A DNA stretch of 58,423 bases from the IMG/VR virus record IMGVR_UViG_3300023174_000191, positions 1 to 58,423 of that record. One strand, written 5' to 3'. Shown piece after piece: positions 41,181 to 55,636 of this stretch (positions are counted from its first letter, which is position 1; every line of letters begins with the position of its first letter). A program made the position numbers and the translations under genes. The notes beneath the pieces were generated by a model. That model ran no database searches and had not been told where the DNA came from. It was given only the letters and a program-made list of their open reading frames with translations. The DNA comes from a virus.

Positions 41181-41205
41181 TCATTTCCAAAGTATTTTTC
41201 AGTAG

Positions 41206-41233
41206 AAATGCACTGAATTTCTTCAATGCATTT
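41206..41233 (-). terminator. 12-bp hairpin with GAAA tetraloop at the end of the tRNA transcript
   Basis: AAATGCATTGAA and TTCAGTGCATTT pair over 12 bp (one G-T) around GAAA, on the 3' side of the last tRNA. It lacks a clear T-tract (TTTCTACTG follows), so it may be a 3'-end stabiliser or processing signal as well as a terminator. Confidence 0.62.
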
Positions 41234-41240
41234 TACTTAT

Positions 41241-41313
41241 TGGTAGCGGTCGCCGGATTCGAACCGAACTTTAGGGTTATGAGCCCTTCGTGCTACCTTT
41301 ACACTACCCCGCG
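41241..41313 (-). tRNA. tRNA-CAU, initiator-like (fMet)
   Basis: The anticodon loop is CTCATAA, so the anticodon is CAU. The anticodon stem has three stacked G-C pairs (GGG/CCC) and the 5' end is CGCGGGG with a C1-U72 mismatch, both typical of initiator tRNA. The acceptor has further mismatches at positions 6-67 and 7-66. It is the only tRNA here that encodes CCA. Confidence 0.7.
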
Positions 41314-41334
41314 GTATATTGGTAATAATTATGT

Positions 41335-41609
41335 TATCGGGAGAATAAAGTATATAGACTAAATCAAAATCAAAATCAATGTCAAAGACCTTCCGTTACA
41401 GCAAAGACAAAAACAAAAACTAAGTCTCGTTTCGTTAGCCACTTTTAATCTCCCATCAGGAGTAACATGTCTAACTATTGAGTTCTATCTCAGTTTGGTT
41501 TAATTTGTAACAGAAGCGAGTTGGCTGGTAGGCACGGGGCCTACGTTAATTGCTGTTGATTAGTATCATATATCTTTATAAGTTATAAATTGCTTTATAG
41601 CTCCCGATA
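41335..41609 (-). ncRNA. candidate structured RNA with nested long-range stems
   Basis: This gene-free stretch is closed by a 9-bp stem, TATCGGGAG at its 5' end (41609-41601) with CTCCCGATA at its 3' end (41343-41335). Inside, CTTCTGTTAC pairs with GTAACGGAAG (one G-U pair), and there are local hairpins (TATAAA-GCAA-TTTATA with a GNRA loop; GTAGGC/GCCTAC; TGAG/CTCA; CTCC/GGAG). The 5' strand of the closing stem can instead pair with CCGATA just upstream, giving two exclusive folds. It is transcribed with the last tRNA. I found no tRNA-like end, so it is not a standard tmRNA. No known family is assigned. Confidence 0.55.
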
Positions 41610-41663
41610 TTAAACTTCCAGGTATCGGCTTTTGCTCATCCTTTCAGTACCACAACTACTTTT

Positions 41664-42575
41664 CTATTTTATTGTTTTAAGAAACTCATCCACTACTGGT
41701 TGGAATCTAGGAGCAACGTCTATTTTAAGAGCCACTGCTGCTTCAATTCTTTCTTGGCGTTTAGCCTCAAATTCTTGAGTTTCTTTTCTTACGAAAGCTG
41801 ACCATTCTTCATTTAGCTTTTTATATTCATCACGTAAAATTTGGTTAGCTTCATTTGCTTTTGCCACTGCATCTCCATTTTCATTTGCAATTCGAGCATT
41901 TTCTTTAGTCACAGCATTTTTTACTTTCGACTTGAAGTAATTTACTTTTTGCTCATATTCTCTATGAGTATTTGCTAACTCTTCATGTATTGAAAGCAAT
42001 TGAGCGGAAGTGTGATGAACTGCTACTTTCATAGGAGTTTTCTTTCCTGTTTCAATTTCCATGAATTCCAAAGTTTTAATTTTTGGCAATTCTGTTCTTA
42101 AACGATCTAAAGTTCCTCCTTTATGGATAAACTGACCGATGTGCGCTGCATAAGCCTCTGCTTCTAAAAATTCATTATATTCAGCAGCTGATAATTCATT
42201 CCAAGCCCACTCTTCAGAAACAAGTTCTTTTAATTCAACTTCAACATACTCTGGAGATTCTGGTCTAGGTTCTGAAGGATAATATTGCTCTTTTTGAATA
42301 GACTTAATCAAAGAATCTTTCGCTTTGATATTTTCCATTAAAAATGCTTGAGTAGCAGCAAGTCTTGCTTTTTCTTGAATTAACTCAGCTACATTACCTG
42401 GTAAAGGTTTTGCTGGAGTTTCAATATAAGTGTCAGAACCGATTGTCAACGTCTTTTCAACGTTATTAACATCAGACAATGTATTAGACAATTCGATAGA
42501 TCTCTGATTACACAAATTAGAGATTGATTGTGCTTGAGACAAAGATAACCCTTTAGTAGATAATGAATTTTTCAT
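41664..42575 (-). CDS. coiled-coil protein within the tRNA transcript, unknown
   Basis: A 303-residue, highly helical protein. Residues about 195-285 form a long coiled coil (HREYEQKVNYFKSKVKNAVT, RDEYKKLNEEWSAFVRKE). Residues 120-150 contain two Trp and several Glu (EEWAWNELSAAEYNEFLEAE). No membrane segment is present. It is downstream of tRNA-Ala and upstream of the structured RNA, so it is made from the same early transcript. The function is unknown. Confidence 0.58.
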   Translation of the reverse strand: MKNSLSTKGLSLSQAQSISNLCNQRSIELSNTLSDVNNVEKTLTIGSDTYIETPAKPLPGNVAELIQEKARLAATQAFLMENIKAKDSLIKSIQKEQYYPSEPRPESPEYVEVELKELVSEEWAWNELSAAEYNEFLEAEAYAAHIGQFIHKGGTLDRLRTELPKIKTLEFMEIETGKKTPMKVAVHHTSAQLLSIHEELANTHREYEQKVNYFKSKVKNAVTKENARIANENGDAVAKANEANQILRDEYKKLNEEWSAFVRKETQEFEAKRQERIEAAVALKIDVAPRFQPVVDEFLKTIK

Positions 42576-42609
42576 AATAGATAATATTTAGTATTTGTTA
42601 ATAAATTAG

Positions 42610-42681
42610 TGGAGCTACCGAGATTCGAACTCGGAATAACAGAGTGCAAGTCTATCGTGATGCCAATTTCACTATAACCCC
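42610..42681 (-). tRNA. tRNA-Ala (UGC)
   Basis: Cloverleaf with 7-bp acceptor (GGGGTTA/TAGCTCC), T-loop TTCGAAT and anticodon loop CTTGCAC, anticodon TGC. No CCA encoded. A second Ala gene lies at 45691-45762. Confidence 0.85.
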
Positions 42682-42686
42682 TTTTG

Positions 42687-42758
42687 TACTGCCACGGAGA
42701 ATCGAACTCCGATTTTATGGATGAAAACCATAGGTCCTGACCGTTAGACGATGGCAGC
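42687..42758 (-). tRNA. tRNA-Glu (UUC)
   Basis: Acceptor GCTGCCA/TGGCAGT, T-arm CGGAG-TTCGATT-CTCCG, anticodon loop TTTTCAT with anticodon TTC. A second Glu gene lies at 45895-45966. Confidence 0.88.
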
Positions 42759-42764
42759 AATTTG

Positions 42765-42852
42765 AGGAAGATGTGGGATTCGAACCCACGGAGGATTTGA
42801 CCCCTCTCCGGTTTTCAAGACCGGTGCAATAGACCAACTCTGCCAACCTTCC
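42765..42852 (-). tRNA. tRNA-Ser (UGA)
   Basis: Class II tRNA with a long variable arm, T-arm GTGGG-TTCGAAT-CCCAC and anticodon loop CTTGAAA (TGA). It is the first tRNA after the promoter at 42866. Confidence 0.87.
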
Positions 42853-42865
42853 CTTTTAATTCTTC

Positions 42866-42898
42866 ATAAATATAAGATAACCTTTTGGAGTATCCTAA
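42866..42898 (-). promoter_or_regulatory. early promoter of the Ser-Glu-Ala tRNA transcript
   Basis: Minus strand TTAGG, 17 nt, CTTATATTTAT. Its -33 part overlaps the stop codon of the 308-residue gene. The 40 nt at 42862-42901 are identical to 48385-48424. Confidence 0.8.
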
Positions 42899-43821
42899 TC
42901 TAAATTATAAATAGTTTCACATTCAGCGAATAATTTTTCATATCGTGCGTCAAATTCTCCTAACTGATTTAACGAATTTACTACCACGTCTAATACTAGA
43001 GTTCTAGTAAATTTATTATCATAATATTTTTTCAGCCCCCAAGAATGTTTTATAGCATTTGCTATTTGTGCCGTTTCTATATTACTATCTAAAGGCGGAA
43101 CCCATTCTATTCCATTTGAATCAATATCTCCTCCAATATGAGGTTGATATACTGATTTTAGAATTTCGCTTTTTGTTAAATTTAAATCATCTATTAGCAC
43201 AGGCAATAACCTTTGTTCTATAAACATTGTACTGCAATCTTCATTAACAAAATTAAATTGTTTTGAATGAGTTTGTTCAATTATCTTACTTGAAATTTCA
43301 AACCATTTTGTAATCAATTCTTTAAAATTAGAATTAAAGCATACTATAGCACAATTTACTGGGTTTATATTCCAATTATAATTTACATCGTCAATCCAAT
43401 TAATTGGATCTGGATATACATTAAAAGGATCATATTCGGCAATAGCTTCTTGATGATAAAATACAAAATCAGTTTCATTACTAATTAAATTAGGCTCTGA
43501 AATCCATAGATCAGTATCAAATATACAAAATCTAGTTTCTTCACGAGCTAATTTATTAGCTAAATATATTTTACAAAAACTCCAAAATTTATTTGAGTAT
43601 TCTTTATATGGATTAGTTTCTAAAAACTGAGTATTTATTTCGTCATACTCTTCATCTAATCCATATTTGCTAATAGAATCTAAATATCTTTGATTGCAAT
43701 ATAATTTAACTGACCCGTAATTCTTTTTCCAAAATTTAATAGAAGCTAATTGAACTAAATAATTTATAGCTTCAAACTCGCCATCATCTTTTGTTTGATA
43801 ATAAACATGATATCCTGTCAT
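42895..43821 (-). CDS. glycosyltransferase-like protein (DUF6734 type)
   Basis: A 308-residue protein inserted between two tRNAs. The early region (KFWKKNYGSVKLYCNQRYLD) and CIFDTDLWISEPN (about 97-109) have the DxD-containing layout of GT-A sugar transferases, and HSWGLKKYYDNKF near 265 fits the family end. I know this style as DUF6734, whose members occur in Bacteroidota and their phages. It could modify a host glycan or a virion part; no substrate can be told. It is transcribed with the tRNA array. Confidence 0.6.
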   Translation of the reverse strand: MTGYHVYYQTKDDGEFEAINYLVQLASIKFWKKNYGSVKLYCNQRYLDSISKYGLDEEYDEINTQFLETNPYKEYSNKFWSFCKIYLANKLAREETRFCIFDTDLWISEPNLISNETDFVFYHQEAIAEYDPFNVYPDPINWIDDVNYNWNINPVNCAIVCFNSNFKELITKWFEISSKIIEQTHSKQFNFVNEDCSTMFIEQRLLPVLIDDLNLTKSEILKSVYQPHIGGDIDSNGIEWVPPLDSNIETAQIANAIKHSWGLKKYYDNKFTRTLVLDVVVNSLNQLGEFDARYEKLFAECETIYNLD

Positions 43822-43836
43822 AACTTATTTATTTTG

Positions 43837-43907
43837 AGGCGCGAGCTGGATTCGAACCAGCATAACAGATTTTGCAGACCTGAACCTAACCATTCAGTCA
43901 TCACGCC
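43837..43907 (-). tRNA. tRNA-Cys (GCA)
   Basis: Acceptor GGCGTGA/TCGCGCC, T-arm GCTGG-TTCGAAT-CCAGC, anticodon loop CTGCAAA (GCA). It is the 3'-most tRNA of the main array. Confidence 0.87.
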
Positions 43908-43914
43908 ATTATTG

Positions 43915-43986
43915 AACTCCTAATAGGACTCGAACCTATATCATCTGGTCCGTAGCCAAACGTTTTTCCAATTAAACTATAAGAGC
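43915..43986 (-). tRNA. tRNA-Arg (ACG)
   Basis: Acceptor GCTCTTA/TAGGAGT, T-loop TTCGAGT, anticodon loop CTACGGA (ACG), which would need A34-to-I editing by the host enzyme to read all CGN codons. Confidence 0.85.
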
Positions 43987-44001
43987 ATTTTTTTAATAGT
44001 T

Positions 44002-44169
44002 TTAAATAATTTTTTCGGTTCCATTATTTTCTCTTATGTTAAAATGAAATCCAAATATTCTAATTTGAAAACCTTTTATGTAAGTATACTTTTTAAAATA
44101 AAACACCCACCATCCAATTTTTTTAATTGGGAACCATCTCGTACCTATGTACGTAACATCGATTTTCAT
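44002..44169 (-). CDS. 55-residue basic aromatic peptide in the tRNA array
   Basis: An ATG at 44169 opens a 55-residue frame (MKIDVTYIGTRWFPIKKIGW, then FYFKKYTYIKG) rich in Lys, Tyr, Phe, Trp and Ile. A longer frame would run into the upstream tRNA, so this start is chosen. It may be membrane-active or bind nucleic acid; no family is known. Confidence 0.5.
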   Translation of the reverse strand: MKIDVTYIGTRWFPIKKIGWWVFYFKKYTYIKGFQIRIFGFHFNIRENNGTEKII

Positions 44170-44187
44170 ACTTTTATTTTTAATTTG

Positions 44188-44261
44188 TACCCAAGGCGAG
44201 ACTCGAACTCGCAAAATCTAGATCCTAAGTCTAGCGCCTATACCAATTCGGCTACTCGGGC
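44188..44261 (-). tRNA. tRNA with UAG anticodon (Leu by code) but class I shape
   Basis: Acceptor GCCCGAG/CTTGGGT, anticodon stem CTAGA/TCTAG with loop CTTAGGA (anticodon TAG), T-arm GCGAG-TTCGAGT-CTCGC. The variable region has only 5 nt, while bacterial Leu tRNAs have a long arm. Confidence 0.8.
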
Positions 44262-44268
44262 AATTTCG

Positions 44269-44340
44269 TACCCCATCCAGGAATCGAACCTAGAACTAAT
44301 CTTTAGAAGAGATTTGTTATATCCGTTTAACTAATAGGGC
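44269..44340 (-). tRNA. tRNA-Arg (UCU)
   Basis: Acceptor GCCCTAT/ATGGGGT, anticodon stem AATCT/AGATT with loop CTTCTAA (TCT), reading AGA/AGG, the common Arg codons of AT-rich genomes. Confidence 0.87.
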
Positions 44341-44344
44341 ATAG

Positions 44345-44429
44345 AGGAAAGAAGAGGTATCGAACCCCATGCCAATTAAGGCACGATTTGCTTAGCAAGC
44401 AATCTTGATCCCTGATCAATTTACTTTCC
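44345..44429 (-). tRNA. tRNA-Ser (GCU)
   Basis: Class II, with a variable arm (GTGCC/GGCAT), anticodon loop TTGCTAA (GCT) and T-loop TTCGATA. It reads AGC/AGU. Confidence 0.84.
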
Positions 44430-44435
44430 AATTTG

Positions 44436-44520
44436 TACACCTGGCCGGACTCGAACCGGCACCCCCCTTACGGAGGATTGGATTTTAAGTCCAACGTGTC
44501 TACCATTCCACCACAGGTGC
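44436..44520 (-). tRNA. tRNA-Leu (UAA)
   Basis: Class II with a G/C-rich variable arm (CCTCC/GGGGG), acceptor GCACCTG/CAGGTGT, anticodon stem TTGGA/TCCAA and loop CTTAAAA (TAA). It is the one clearly normal Leu tRNA in the array. Confidence 0.88.
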
Positions 44521-44526
44521 ATTAAG

Positions 44527-44600
44527 TGTGAAAGATGGGACTCGAACCCACAATCGCCTGAACCACAATCAGGTGCTTTACCAATTCAGCTACAATCACC
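44527..44600 (-). tRNA. tRNA-His (GUG)
   Basis: Anticodon stem CCTGA/TCAGG, loop TTGTGGT (GTG). An extra 5' G (position -1) is present, as in bacterial His tRNA. Two U-U pairs occur in the acceptor stem. Confidence 0.82.
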
Positions 44601-44610
44601 ATGTATCTTG

Positions 44611-44682
44611 TTGGGTTACTAGGATTCGAACCTAGACTAAAACAGTCAAAGTGTTTTGTGCTAACCGTTACACTATAACCCA
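44611..44682 (-). tRNA. tRNA-Gln (UUG)
   Basis: Acceptor TGGGTTA/TAACCCA, T-arm CTAGG-TTCGAAT-CCTAG, anticodon loop CTTTGAC (TTG). Confidence 0.88.
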
Positions 44683-44689
44683 AAATTTG

Positions 44690-44757
44690 TACCGAGTAAT
44701 GGTATCGAGCCATTCTAGAAATAGATATGAGCCATCTCCGGTCCCTGACCACTCGGC
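44690..44757 (-). tRNA. tRNA-CAU with shortened D-arm
   Basis: Acceptor GCCGAGT/ACTCGGT (7 bp) and anticodon loop CTCATAT (CAT) are clear, but only 14 nt separate the acceptor from the anticodon stem, against about 19 normally. The T-loop starts with C (CTCGATA). The total is 68 nt. It might be an Ile tRNA with modified C34 or a Met tRNA. Confidence 0.68.
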
Positions 44758-44767
44758 AATTAAATTG

Positions 44768-44840
44768 TGGGAACTGCAGGAATCGAACCTGCTCCTTTAG
44801 TTCTTCAGACTAACGCGCGCACCAGCTACGCCAAGTTCCC
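44768..44840 (-). tRNA. tRNA-Phe (GAA)
   Basis: Acceptor GGGAACT/AGTTCCC, T-arm GCAGG-TTCGATT-CCTGC, anticodon stem TTAGT/ACTAA with loop CTGAAGA (GAA). Confidence 0.88.
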
Positions 44841-44953
44841 AATGCCTGGCTCGAAACCAGGCTTCTCATATAAAGGCATTTACATTTTTACTCAGCTTCC
44901 TTCGTTATCCATGACACAGCACATTGCTATCTGGCATGGAAAGTCAAATGCCT
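44841..44953 (-). ncRNA. candidate structured spacer RNA with T-arm-like hairpin
   Basis: This tRNA-free gap folds well. AGGCATTT (5' end, 44953-44946) pairs with AAATGCCT (44881-44874) over 8 bp. Inside, TCCATG pairs with CATGGA and AGCA with TGCT. At the 3' side is a GCCTGG-TTTCGAG-CCAGGC hairpin that looks like a tRNA T-arm. No acceptor or anticodon arm is seen, so it is not a normal tRNA. Confidence 0.5.
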
Positions 44954-44992
44954 CAAAAACAAACACATAAAGAAAAAGTTCAAAACCATTTG

Positions 44993-45064
44993 CGGTCTAT
45001 TCGGGATTCGAACCCGAGTCTTCTACGTGACAGGCAGACATCCATACCCCTGGACCAATAGACC
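44993..45064 (-). tRNA. tRNA-Asp (GUC), copy 1
   Basis: Acceptor GGTCTAT/ATAGACC, T-arm TCGGG-TTCGAAT-CCCGA, anticodon loop CTGTCAC (GTC). It differs at only two positions from a second copy at 45613-45684. Confidence 0.9.
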
Positions 45065-45072
45065 AATTTTTG

Positions 45073-45146
45073 TGTCCTATACAGGATTTGAACCTGTGAC
45101 CTTCTCGTTATGAGCGAGCTGCTCTGACCAGCTGAGCTAAAAGGAC
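45073..45146 (-). tRNA. tRNA-Met (CAU), elongator-like
   Basis: Acceptor GTCCTTT/ATAGGAC, standard D-arm GCTCAGCTGGTCAGAGC, anticodon stem CTCG/CGAG with loop CTCATAA (CAT), T-loop TTCAAAT. Elongator Met is most likely; Ile with lysidine at C34 is the alternative. Confidence 0.85.
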
Positions 45147-45152
45147 ATTTTG

Positions 45153-45223
45153 TACCTCGTAGTGGAATCGAACCACTGCCCTTTGCATGTAAAACAAATA
45201 CGCTTCCATTACGCCAACGAGGC
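45153..45223 (-). tRNA. tRNA-Val (UAC)
   Basis: Acceptor GCCTCGT/ACGAGGT, anticodon stem TTTGT/GCAAA with loop TTTACAT (TAC), T-arm AGTGG-TTCGATT-CCACT. Confidence 0.86.
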
Positions 45224-45288
45224 AAATCTAATTCTATGCGTCGGTGCTTATTAAGCGGTGATCTATGAATTAGTAACAGTCTTATTCG

Positions 45289-45359
45289 TACCCCCTGAAG
45301 GTAATGCTCCTTCTTCCCGATATTAAAAGTATCGTGCTTCACTTTAAAGCCTAGAGGGC
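45289..45359 (-). tRNA. divergent tRNA-Lys (UUU) without a TTCRA T-loop
   Basis: A full cloverleaf of 71 nt: acceptor GCCCTCT/AGGGGGT, D-stem GCTT/AAGC, anticodon stem CGATA/TATCG with loop CTTTTAA (TTT), T-stem GAAGG/CCTTC. The T-loop is AGCATTA in place of the near-universal TTCRANN, so a standard search may miss it. It is the only Lys candidate in the window. Confidence 0.65.
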
Positions 45360-45365
45360 TAATAG

Positions 45366-45441
45366 TCTGATAGGCAGGATTCGAACCTGCGTGCTCCTAC
45401 GTCCAAGGTAGGCTAGATAAACCGGACTCCTATACTACCAG
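45366..45441 (-). tRNA. tRNA-Pro (UGG)
   Basis: Acceptor CTGGTAG/CTATCAG, anticodon stem CCTAC/GTAGG with loop CTTGGAC (TGG), T-arm GCAGG-TTCGAAT-CCTGC. Confidence 0.87.
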
Positions 45442-45452
45442 AAGTATATTTG

Positions 45453-45526
45453 TAGTGATAATAGGACTCGAACCTATATCCTCCTCGGTATCAGCGAGGT
45501 GCTCCAACCAATTGAGCTATACCACT
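45453..45526 (-). tRNA. tRNA-Ile (GAU)
   Basis: Acceptor AGTGGTA/TATCACT, D-arm GCTCAATTGGTTGGAGC, anticodon stem CCTCG/CGAGG with loop CTGATAC (GAT). Confidence 0.88.
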
Positions 45527-45532
45527 ATATTG

Positions 45533-45606
45533 AGCCGAGGACAGGACTCGAACCGACGTCTTTGGCTTATGAGACCAAGCTGGGACCATCTCCAGTCTAA
45601 CTCGCG
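45533..45606 (-). tRNA. tRNA-CAU, imperfect acceptor
   Basis: Anticodon stem TTGGT/GCCAA with loop CTCATAA (CAT) and T-loop TTCGAGT are clear. The acceptor (CGCGAGT with CCTCGGC) forms only about four pairs and the T-stem is imperfect. It is the fourth CAU gene; edges are approximate. Confidence 0.62.
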
Positions 45607-45612
45607 ATATTG

Positions 45613-45684
45613 CGGTCTATTCGGGATTCGAACCCGAGTCTTCTACGTGACAGGCAGGCATCCATTCCCCTGGACCAATAGACC
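45613..45684 (-). tRNA. tRNA-Asp (GUC), copy 2
   Basis: Same arms as the copy at 44993-45064, with two base differences in the D-arm and anticodon-stem region. The flanking 3' GCA is also kept, which points to recent duplication. Confidence 0.9.
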
Positions 45685-45690
45685 TTATTG

Positions 45691-45762
45691 TGGAGCTATG
45701 GAGAATCGAACTCCAATTTATGAATTGCAAATCCATTGTAATAGCCGTTATACTATAACCCC
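45691..45762 (-). tRNA. tRNA-Ala (UGC), second gene
   Basis: Acceptor GGGGTTA/TAGCTCC as in the first Ala tRNA, anticodon stem ATGGA/TTCAT with loop TTTGCAA (TGC), T-arm TGGAG-TTCGATT-CTCCA. Confidence 0.85.
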
Positions 45763-45766
45763 AATT

Positions 45767-45892
45767 AAATTAAATAAATAAGTCTTCGTCTCTCCTAGCT
45801 GGCCCACTTGAAGATTACTCTTCGTGCCCGACTCGAACGGGAATGCTAGCGACTCAATCCAGCTTGCCCATAAATGGGTATTTATTTAATTT
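45767..45892 (-). ncRNA. candidate structured spacer RNA closed by a 14-bp stem
   Basis: The ends (45892-45879 and 45780-45767) pair over 14 A-T rich base pairs. Within lie AGCTGG/CCAGCT (6 bp, 60 nt apart), a T-arm-like hairpin CCCG-TTCGAGT-CGGG, and GAAGA-GTAA-TCTTC with a GNRA-type loop. No anticodon arm is found. The combination of outer, middle and local stems suggests a real fold. It lies between tRNA-Glu and tRNA-Ala genes. Confidence 0.58.
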
Positions 45893-45894
45893 TG

Positions 45895-45966
45895 TACTAC
45901 CGAGGAGAATCGAACTCCCGTTTCAACAGTGAAAGTGTTGTGTCCTAGCCGTTAGACGACGGTAGC
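45895..45966 (-). tRNA. tRNA-Glu (UUC), second gene
   Basis: Acceptor GCTACCG/CGGTAGT, anticodon stem CAACA/TGTTG with loop CTTTCAC (TTC), T-loop TTCGATT. It is not a close copy of the first Glu gene. Confidence 0.88.
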
Positions 45967-45973
45967 AAATTTG

Positions 45974-46045
45974 AGCGAGTAGACGGAATCGAACCGACAT
46001 CATCTGGTTGGAAGCCAGAGATAATAACCGTTATACGATACTCGC
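45974..46045 (-). tRNA. tRNA-Gly (UCC)
   Basis: Acceptor GCGAGTA/TACTCGC, anticodon stem TCTGG/CCAGA with loop CTTCCAA (TCC). A second gene with this anticodon is at 47136-47209. Confidence 0.88.
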
Positions 46046-46054
46046 AAATTAAAG

Positions 46055-46126
46055 AGCCTCTACAAGGAATCGAACCCTGTTATCTTGTGTACAAAACAAG
46101 TGCATCACCATTTATGCTTTAGAGGC
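46055..46126 (-). tRNA. tRNA-Thr (UGU)
   Basis: Acceptor GCCTCTA/TAGAGGC, anticodon stem CTTGT/ACAAG with loop TTTGTAC (TGT), T-loop TTCGATT. Confidence 0.87.
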
Positions 46127-46206
46127 CATTTAAACTACAAGCGGTTCTCGTATCCGTTCTGCAGGTTAGCCCCTGCTGCTTTGCAATAAGCTAATTCCAA
46201 TTAATT

Positions 46207-46713
46207 TTAAAAGAATAGAAAGGTCTCCCACTCTTTTGGTATGTAAGTCATAGATCTCATTAACATTAAATAGTGAGGTCTTTTTGGCTCTGGAATTTCC
46301 TTACCGTACTCCTCCAATGTTAAATCTGCCTTTTCATGATTACATGGACGACAAGCGGTAACTAAATTATCCCAAGCGTCTTTTCCTCCTTTTGATTGAG
46401 GTATAACATGATCTAATGTCAATAGTTTTTGATTTGAACTACCGCAATACACACATTCATAATTGTCTCTTTTATAAACGTTTTCTCTTGTTAAAGGAAC
46501 TCTATTAATATGCTGTTTAACATATTTAGCAACTCTAATAATAGAAGGTTTGTATATAATTAATTCAGGATTAATTAAGCTAAACGTTTCTGGATGGTCA
46601 GCTATCACTTCGGCATTGCCTTTATAACAAATTACAAACGCTCTTTCTGTGCTTATAACTGACCTCGCAGTAAAACTTGCATCTACTACAAGTGCTTTTT
46701 GATACTTACTCAT
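46207..46713 (-). CDS. HNH endonuclease in the tRNA array
   Basis: A 168-residue protein with a full HNH site: YECVYCG, TLDHVIPQSKGG, WDNLVTACRPCNHEKAD (about residues 87-130), including the two CxxC zinc knuckles. The first 80 residues are a small alpha/beta part typical of phage and host HNH proteins (KALVVDASFTARSVISTERA). Such nucleases move as free-standing homing genes and often sit beside phage tRNAs. It is transcribed with the array; the coding sequence looks intact. Confidence 0.88.
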   Translation of the reverse strand: MSKYQKALVVDASFTARSVISTERAFVICYKGNAEVIADHPETFSLINPELIIYKPSIIRVAKYVKQHINRVPLTRENVYKRDNYECVYCGSSNQKLLTLDHVIPQSKGGKDAWDNLVTACRPCNHEKADLTLEEYGKEIPEPKRPHYLMLMRSMTYIPKEWETFLFF

Positions 46714-46745
46714 CGCTTACTAATTTATATTATTATACTTATTTG

Positions 46746-46816
46746 CACGCCAGGAAGGATTCGAACCTTCATCATCGGTTTTGGAGACCGGTATGCTACC
46801 ATTGCACCACTGACGC
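46746..46816 (-). tRNA. tRNA-Trp (CCA)
   Basis: Acceptor GCGTCAG/CTGGCGT, anticodon stem CGGT/ACCG with loop CTCCAAA (CCA), T-arm GAAGG-TTCGAAT-CCTTC. Confidence 0.88.
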
Positions 46817-46822
46817 ATTTTG

Positions 46823-46894
46823 AGGGCTGGGAGAATTTCGAAATCTCGACCCGCTGCCTAACAAACAGCCGCTCTGCCTCTGAGCTACCAACCC
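46823..46894 (-). tRNA. tRNA-Asn (GUU)
   Basis: Acceptor GGGTTGG/CCAGCCC, D-arm GCTCAGAGGCAGAGC, anticodon stem GCTGT/GCAGC with loop TTGTTAG (GTT). The T-loop appears enlarged to 8-9 nt (TTTCGAAAT). Confidence 0.84.
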
Positions 46895-46906
46895 AATTAA
46901 TATTTG

Positions 46907-46987
46907 TGGGATACTGTGGAATCGAACCACACCTTCTTACAGAACGATTTTACAGACCGCTTATCACACCAGTGACTGAAGCATCCC
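46907..46987 (-). tRNA. tRNA-Tyr (GUA)
   Basis: Class II with variable arm, acceptor GGGATGC/GTATCCC, anticodon loop CTGTAAA (GTA), T-arm TGTGG-TTCGATT-CCACA. Confidence 0.86.
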
Positions 46988-46993
46988 AATTTT

Positions 46994-47110
46994 GACTACT
47001 ACCTGACTCCTTTCGAACTTTGCAGGCTCGTATCATTCATTCTTAGTAGTCCAAGGCGTTACGCGTCCATCTAGTAACTTTAATTTTCTTGAGTCCGGAT
47101 AAGCGCTTAT
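46994..47110 (-). ncRNA. candidate structured spacer RNA (two hairpin units)
   Basis: The 3' unit (47051-46994) is closed by GACTACTA/TAGTAGTC (8 bp) with an inner CCTG/CAGG stem. The 5' unit contains the palindromic hairpin GATAA-GCGC-TTATC inside GAGT/ACTC, and GCG-TTA-CGC between them. No anticodon arm can be drawn. It lies between the Tyr and Gly tRNAs. Confidence 0.45.
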
Positions 47111-47135
47111 CAACTCTAGGACATTACCTTGTTTG

Positions 47136-47209
47136 AGCGGTGCAAGGGATTCGAACCCTTACCTCGAGTTTGGAAGACTCATATGCTAACCGTTAAACAC
47201 CAGCACCGC
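47136..47209 (-). tRNA. tRNA-Gly (UCC), second gene
   Basis: Acceptor GCGGTGC/GCACCGC, anticodon stem GAGT/ACTC with loop CTTCCAA (TCC). It is the first tRNA after the array promoter. Confidence 0.88.
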
Positions 47210-55548: not shown

Positions 55549-55563
55549 ACTTTTTTAATTTTG

Positions 55564-55636
55564 GAACCGGTAAGGGATTCGAACCCTTATCTAGGCAGAT
55601 CTATGCCACCCATGTTACCAATTACACTAACCGATT
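55564..55636 (-). tRNA. tRNA with UAG anticodon, class I, A33
   Basis: Every arm has standard length: acceptor AATCGGT/ACCGGTT, D-stem GTGT/ACAT, anticodon stem GGTGG/CTGCC, T-arm AAGGG-TTCGAAT-CCCTT. The loop is CATAGAT, giving anticodon TAG but A instead of the near-invariant U33. It stands alone within protein genes. Confidence 0.72.

Follow-up and report, generated by a model that had tools for sequence, protein, structure and literature searches.

What is encoded on the minus strand between the gene for a 303-aa protein and a tRNA-Met gene in the window, i.e., the whole stretch of viral DNA analysed here (58,423 nt, IMG/VR record IMGVR_UViG_3300023174_000191)? The sequence-only reading of this region had proposed a 275-nt structured RNA without a gene, located in the leader of a tRNA and possibly switching between two exclusive folds.

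In the minus-strand orientation, unconstrained minimum-energy folding recovered both the 9-bp closing stem (P2) and the second long-range stem of 10 bp (P4) on which that proposal was built. The fold had a z-score of -3.35, and a fold of equal stability was found in 0 of 200 shuffles. However, the plus strand reached a z-score of -2.96. Since both strands fold well, folding energy alone can neither settle the strand nor prove a structure.

The strand is settled by covariation among homologues. For this analysis, 62 distinct homologues with a mean column identity of 49% were aligned with MAFFT, which is sequence-based and not structure-aware, and scored against a model consisting of P0, P1, P2, P4, P5 and P6. 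Of the 48 pairs in the minus-strand structure, 43 carried compensatory changes on both sides. Two-sided changes occurred in 587 cells, as opposed to 113-171 when the 3' partner strands were slid by 1 to 3 columns; in the same comparison, 88.1% versus 39-52% of the cells were paired and the covariation score was 0.556 versus at most 0.183. None of these measures was reached by any of 500 shuffles. Thus, comparison of the homologues settles the minus strand as the one that encodes the RNA and strongly supports a structured noncoding RNA. A weak extension of P2 (helix 5) was 50% paired and was excluded from the claimed structure. We also scanned all column pairs without guidance from the model (~58,000 pairs, 85 sequences) against a tree-based null. 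The 14 strongest column pairs all fell within P0, P1, P2, P4 and P6, and 5 pairs had E < 0.05 over the some 58,000 column pairs, where the E-values are approximate and the null is our own implementation in the style of R-scape.

The features are listed in Table 1. P0, which was added by the unguided scan, joins the 5' and 3' ends of the RNA and sets its limits; the junction that it closes contains P1, a hairpin on the 5' side, and P2, a long stem. P2 in turn surrounds P4, the long-range stem, together with a variable arm and the hairpins P5 and P6. The structure seen in the sequence-only reading was therefore retained, together with both of its long-range stems, while its limits were not: the outer stem and the 5' hairpin extend the unit to ~41,330-41,655. 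Two strands of UUUG-type hexamers, each ~30-40 nt, are conserved in sequence, and the all-pairs scan found no covarying partner for either. In six divergent relatives (L066, L067, L069, L071, L073 and L144), P5 (UGAGAUAGAACUCA) is swapped for a longer, unrelated hairpin-like element, a replacement that possibly marks a subtype of the RNA.

Table 1. Positions of the predicted RNA, its elements and the flanking genes in the window
Feature	Position	Strand	Description	Evidence
Whole RNA unit	41330..41655	-	structured noncoding RNA, ~325 nt	homologues in >100 viral contigs; two-sided compensatory changes in 43/48 pairs
P0, 5' strand	41651..41653	-	outer stem, pairs with 41331-41333; a few nt past the stop of the 303-aa gene	top-ranked covarying pair of the whole alignment; 93.5% of cells paired
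P0, 3' strand	41331..41333	-	in relatives, a terminator-like U-rich tract comes next	covariation; at least 6 T in 8 nt
P1	41614..41648	-	hairpin with conserved apical UAAGCACAAGCCGAU-type loop	7/7 outer pairs covary; inner two-pair helix 100% paired
P2, 5' strand	41601..41609	-	closing 9-bp stem, pairs with 41335-41343	two-sided changes in 8/8 counted pairs; 96% of cells paired
P2, 3' strand	41335..41343	-		covariation with P2 5' strand
P3	41528..41544	-	local hairpin GUAGGC/GCCUAC, variable among relatives	minimum-energy fold; 51-69% of cells paired, weakly supported
P4, 5' strand	41507..41516	-	second long-range stem, pairs with 41390-41399	two-sided changes in 10/10 pairs; 97% of cells paired
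P4, 3' strand	41390..41399	-		covariation with P4 5' strand
P5	41479..41492	-	hairpin UGAG-AUAGAA-CUCA	nearly invariant in the main clade; other sequence in divergent relatives
P6	41434..41475	-	hairpin GUUAG.CAU/GUG.CUAAC	two-sided changes in 7/8 pairs; 95% of cells paired
Conserved strand 1	41400..41428	-	apparently unpaired, GAGACUUAGUUUUUGUUUUUGUCUUUG, UUUG-type hexamers	near-invariant columns; without covarying partner
Conserved strand 2	41351..41389	-	apparently unpaired, GGUCUUUGACAUUGAUUUUGAUUUUGAUUUAGUCUAUAUA, UUUG-type hexamers	near-invariant columns; without covarying partner
303-aa protein gene	41664..42575	-	family not known; lies immediately 5' of the RNA, whose proposed partner it encodes	strict linkage in loci
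tRNA-Met	41245..41312	-	initiator-like; immediately 3' of the RNA, outside the conserved unit	Rfam tRNA, 37.7 bits; missed by ARAGORN; absent there in most relatives

Could the region instead be a decayed or unrecognised protein gene, or its structure a product of chance or a property of the DNA only? Besides the folding of both strands, what speaks for this is one part of the unpaired region that is free of stops in one frame (VFDIDFDFDLVYI), and this stretch derives from the UUUG-type hexamers. We consider the idea highly improbable. The longest sense ORF in the RNA has a median length of 28 aa versus 34 aa in shuffles, so that the original observation of a region without a gene held up in the relatives too, and single-base indels shift the reading frame between relatives. 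Chance structure, for its part, is at odds with compensatory changes that lie in register on the minus strand.

The proposed two-state switch in a tRNA leader fared worse still and is, in our estimate, scarcely credible. A tRNA-Met does follow the RNA in the window, and the CCGATA segment is able to pair with TATCGG of the closing stem as described. That pairing, however, shows no covariation, its score was reached by 337 of 500 shuffles, and forcing it costs 8.6 kcal/mol; in the computed ensemble its probability is near 0 and that of P2 near 1. Nor is the adjacency to a tRNA conserved: among the 45 loci surveyed, a tRNA lies within 150 nt on the 3' side and on the same strand in only 3, and 9 have no tRNA at all in the contig DNA examined. 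Because the alternative pairing lacks covariation and is energetically weaker, and because the tRNA adjacency is not conserved, we reject the switch; the tRNA neighbour in the window is incidental.

Known RNA classes do not account for the region. At the gathering score the only Rfam families in the window were tRNAs, and beyond tRNAs and chance there was no match in the region at E ≤ 10 or in 12 relatives at E ≤ 5. Under these same settings the covariance models for GOLLD, ROOL, OLE, RNase P RNA, 6S RNA, group I introns and riboswitches all went unmatched. Neither ARAGORN nor Rfam found a tmRNA (a tRNA-like domain plus a tag ORF) in the window or in 22 relatives. We found no description of the RNA in the part of the literature that our search covered. 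The RNA is a new family outside Rfam, of a sort that is known: a large structured phage RNA and an RNA-protein gene pair.

Homologues of the RNA were found in over 100 IMG/VR contigs, the longest of 434 kb, from aquatic uncultured phages. When viral contigs were first searched with the 303-aa protein as query, 76 loci were obtained, and in most of these blastn with the 351-nt intergenic sequence placed the RNA behind the gene, at identities down to ~70%. Exactly one strong copy each of the RNA and the gene was present in each of 28 contigs, including those of 322-434 kb, indicating a single-copy pair. In four contigs there was one further weak match to the RNA model (E 9e-4 to 0.09), probably by chance; two weak second matches to the core model, at G015:C1:123693-123766 (25 bits) and G009:C1:142629-142733 (24 bits), lie away from the 303-aa gene and are probably chance as well. 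Searches of 50,697 cultured phage records returned no match to the 303-aa gene (tblastn) or to the RNA of a relative (blastn), and blastn of the window DNA against cultured phages returned matches to tRNA-Met only. The sole match in the plasmid search was 39 nt long and due to chance. Among bacterial genomes of 84,980 species, the gene was found in a single MAG contig.

The RNA is strictly linked to the 303-aa gene. A wider protein scan yielded 81 loci, in 78 of which the RNA follows the gene; the other three contigs end 0, 19 and 7 nt past the gene. As a control for circularity, viral contigs were scanned separately with three RNA motifs. All 29 contigs found by motif only, which were absent from the first protein scan, had the gene on the upstream side, and the encoded proteins were as little as ~45-55% identical (some of the 29 are near-duplicates). 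L140 is cut by the contig end, and one pattern match, in L123, was discarded as chance, with neither the RNA nor the 303-aa gene around it. The pair was present in 35 of 35 representative loci with full flanks, whereas the next commonest neighbour was present in 18 of 35. In sum, truncated contigs aside, wherever one member of the pair was present, so was the other. This pattern suggests that the two work together as an RNA-protein machine.

What kind of protein is the putative partner? In an alignment of 41 full-length family members 45 columns are invariant, and many of these hold polar residues (Ser, Asn, Gln, His, Lys, Arg); an AlphaFold2 model of the 303-aa protein is mostly helical and confident (pLDDT 87). 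Searches of Pfam, PHROG and the PDB assigned it to no family, and the Pfam and structure searches revealed no recognisable RNA-binding domain. With the model as query, Foldseek returned one homologue from an uncultured phage only, its PDB matches being insignificant. A relationship to TolC-like barrels was dismissed (best Z of 7.2 in the structure aligner, within chance for long helices), as was an internal duplication (probability of 0.7% in a comparison of half-profiles). The calculated pI is 5.6 (family mean 6.0), and the protein is, by its composition, not an obviously basic RNA binder. In one relative (L043:2995-3912), the gene has a TAA at the position of the invariant Gln148; since that contig shows no recoding of TAG or TGA, the TAA is probably a point nonsense change or a sequencing error.

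The arrangement around the RNA bears on how it may be made. In most loci only a few nt separate the stop codon of the gene from the start of the RNA, on the same strand. At least 8 representative loci have one to three small ORFs inserted between the two; the RNA is intact there, and most of these ORFs end a few nt before P0, a pattern that points to recurrent gene gain at this site. The intervening ORFs (L164, L171, L173, L176, L180, L181, L187 and L190) are unrelated, 64-102 aa long and a few nt from both the gene and the RNA. Directly after P0, a U-rich tract (at least 6 T in 8 nt) is present in 45% of relatives versus 4% of random positions, and several relatives have an ordinary hairpin terminator after it. 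The intervening ORFs together with the U-tract and terminators are more in keeping with a separate RNA that has a 3' end of its own than with a bare UTR. The U-tract is weaker in the window, where transcription probably runs on into the tRNA. Synonymous diversity near the 3' end of the gene is 0.35 against a mean near 0.45, a slight drop at most, and we discarded a promoter or other element overlapping the end of the gene for that reason.

The explanation that we favour, and regard as fairly likely, is a trans-acting noncoding RNA that forms a ribonucleoprotein (RNP) with the 303-aa protein. The RNA would be co-transcribed with the gene just upstream and would be released as a discrete species, consistent with the U-rich tract after P0 in many relatives; RNA and protein would then act in trans, and the two unpaired UUUG-type strands may provide a contact surface for the protein or for another target. 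At a guess, such an RNP might have a part in translation or in gene expression of the phage. We rate this explanation best because gene and RNA stay strictly paired across deeply diverged relatives while other neighbours turn over, and because the RNA tolerates intervening ORFs and its unpaired strands are conserved. The lack of a basic character and of a recognisable RNA-binding domain in the protein counts against it, and the unpaired strands could instead pair with a sequence outside the data examined.

Linkage alone could also reflect co-transcription and a role in cis, and this is the main rival: a structured 3' UTR that stabilises or ends the mRNA of the 303-aa protein, or through which the protein regulates its own message. 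The position of the RNA just behind the stop codon on the same strand, the U-rich tract and the strict linkage would all be expected of such an element. Yet the RNA is unharmed where other ORFs intervene, constraint on synonymous sites near the 3' end of the gene is raised slightly at best, and stabilisation or termination would call neither for so large an RNA nor for so many invariant unpaired bases nor for an outer stem that joins the 5' and 3' ends; we consider a cis role unlikely. The second rival is a function of the RNA only, as a trans regulator or decoy of a host RNA-binding protein, RNA polymerase or mRNAs, which would share an operon with the gene and bind its target through the UUUG-type strands. 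The long conserved strands without a partner suit this reading, as does the precedent of GOLLD and ROOL, phage RNAs that form RNA-only cages (PMC12286853). However, a shared operon alone is not expected to give 100% linkage while other neighbours turn over, and the leaders of 725 phage ORFs show no enrichment of sequences complementary to the hexamers. In these leaders CAAA was seen 161 times versus 165 expected and TCAAA 35 times versus 52, and pairing of the hexamers with A-rich phage mRNA leaders was dropped as a candidate. An RNA-only function strikes us as quite improbable.

If the favoured reading of a trans-acting RNP holds, a further step may be entertained, more tentatively: that the pair is a new kind of phage RNP, composed of one ~325-nt RNA, present in single copy, and a dedicated protein with no known relatives in fold. 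The two would be kept across a large phage family, from ordinary-sized to 434-kb genomes, and would influence gene expression of the host or the phage through a mechanism absent from known RNPs. Conserved phage RNAs of known function are few, and the widespread uncultured phages would here contribute a further RNA class, large, strictly conserved, missing from Rfam and already accompanied by the gene for a partner that could be tested. A cultured member, if there is one, would allow immediate testing.

Structured RNAs encoded beside a protein partner are familiar from ToxIN-like and retron-like modules. The RNA described here likewise lies beside a candidate protein partner; unlike in those modules, we found no repeats, reverse transcriptase or toxin family, and the gene is a conserved single-copy phage gene. 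The adjacency of an RNA gene and a protein gene has yielded new RNPs before: the OLE RNA gene (ole) lies beside what was an unknown protein gene, and this adjacency led to the proven OLE RNA-OapA complex (PMC11332333). As with OLE and the membrane protein OapA of Bacillota, a structured noncoding RNA here adjoins a protein gene of unknown function; the complex proven for OLE would have a putative counterpart in this case. OLE, however, is ~600 nt long and bacterial, whereas the phage RNA matches no Rfam model and the 303-aa protein no Pfam family. GOLLD and ROOL are RNAs of phages and prophages that are often near tRNA islands (PMC12286853). They resemble the present RNA in being structured, noncoding and phage-borne, often in tRNA-rich surroundings (a tRNA within ~3 kb in 34 of 45 loci). 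Unlike them, the ~325-nt RNA is half their size or less, is unrelated to their Rfam models and is tied to a protein gene, while ROOL has no identified protein partner.

The contig of the window is itself rich in tRNAs, with 26 found by ARAGORN, and also encodes an RNA ligase and a baseplate wedge protein. Twenty-five of the tRNA genes, covering most amino acids, are densely arrayed at 42609-47209, and another is located at 55563-55636. In related contigs, the leaders of ORFs are rich in A and show hardly any trace of a Shine-Dalgarno sequence, which we take to fit a Bacteroidota host. Just past the tRNA-Met of the window, at 41201-41232, lies a terminator-like inverted repeat (AAATGCATTGAA/TTCAGTGCATTT).
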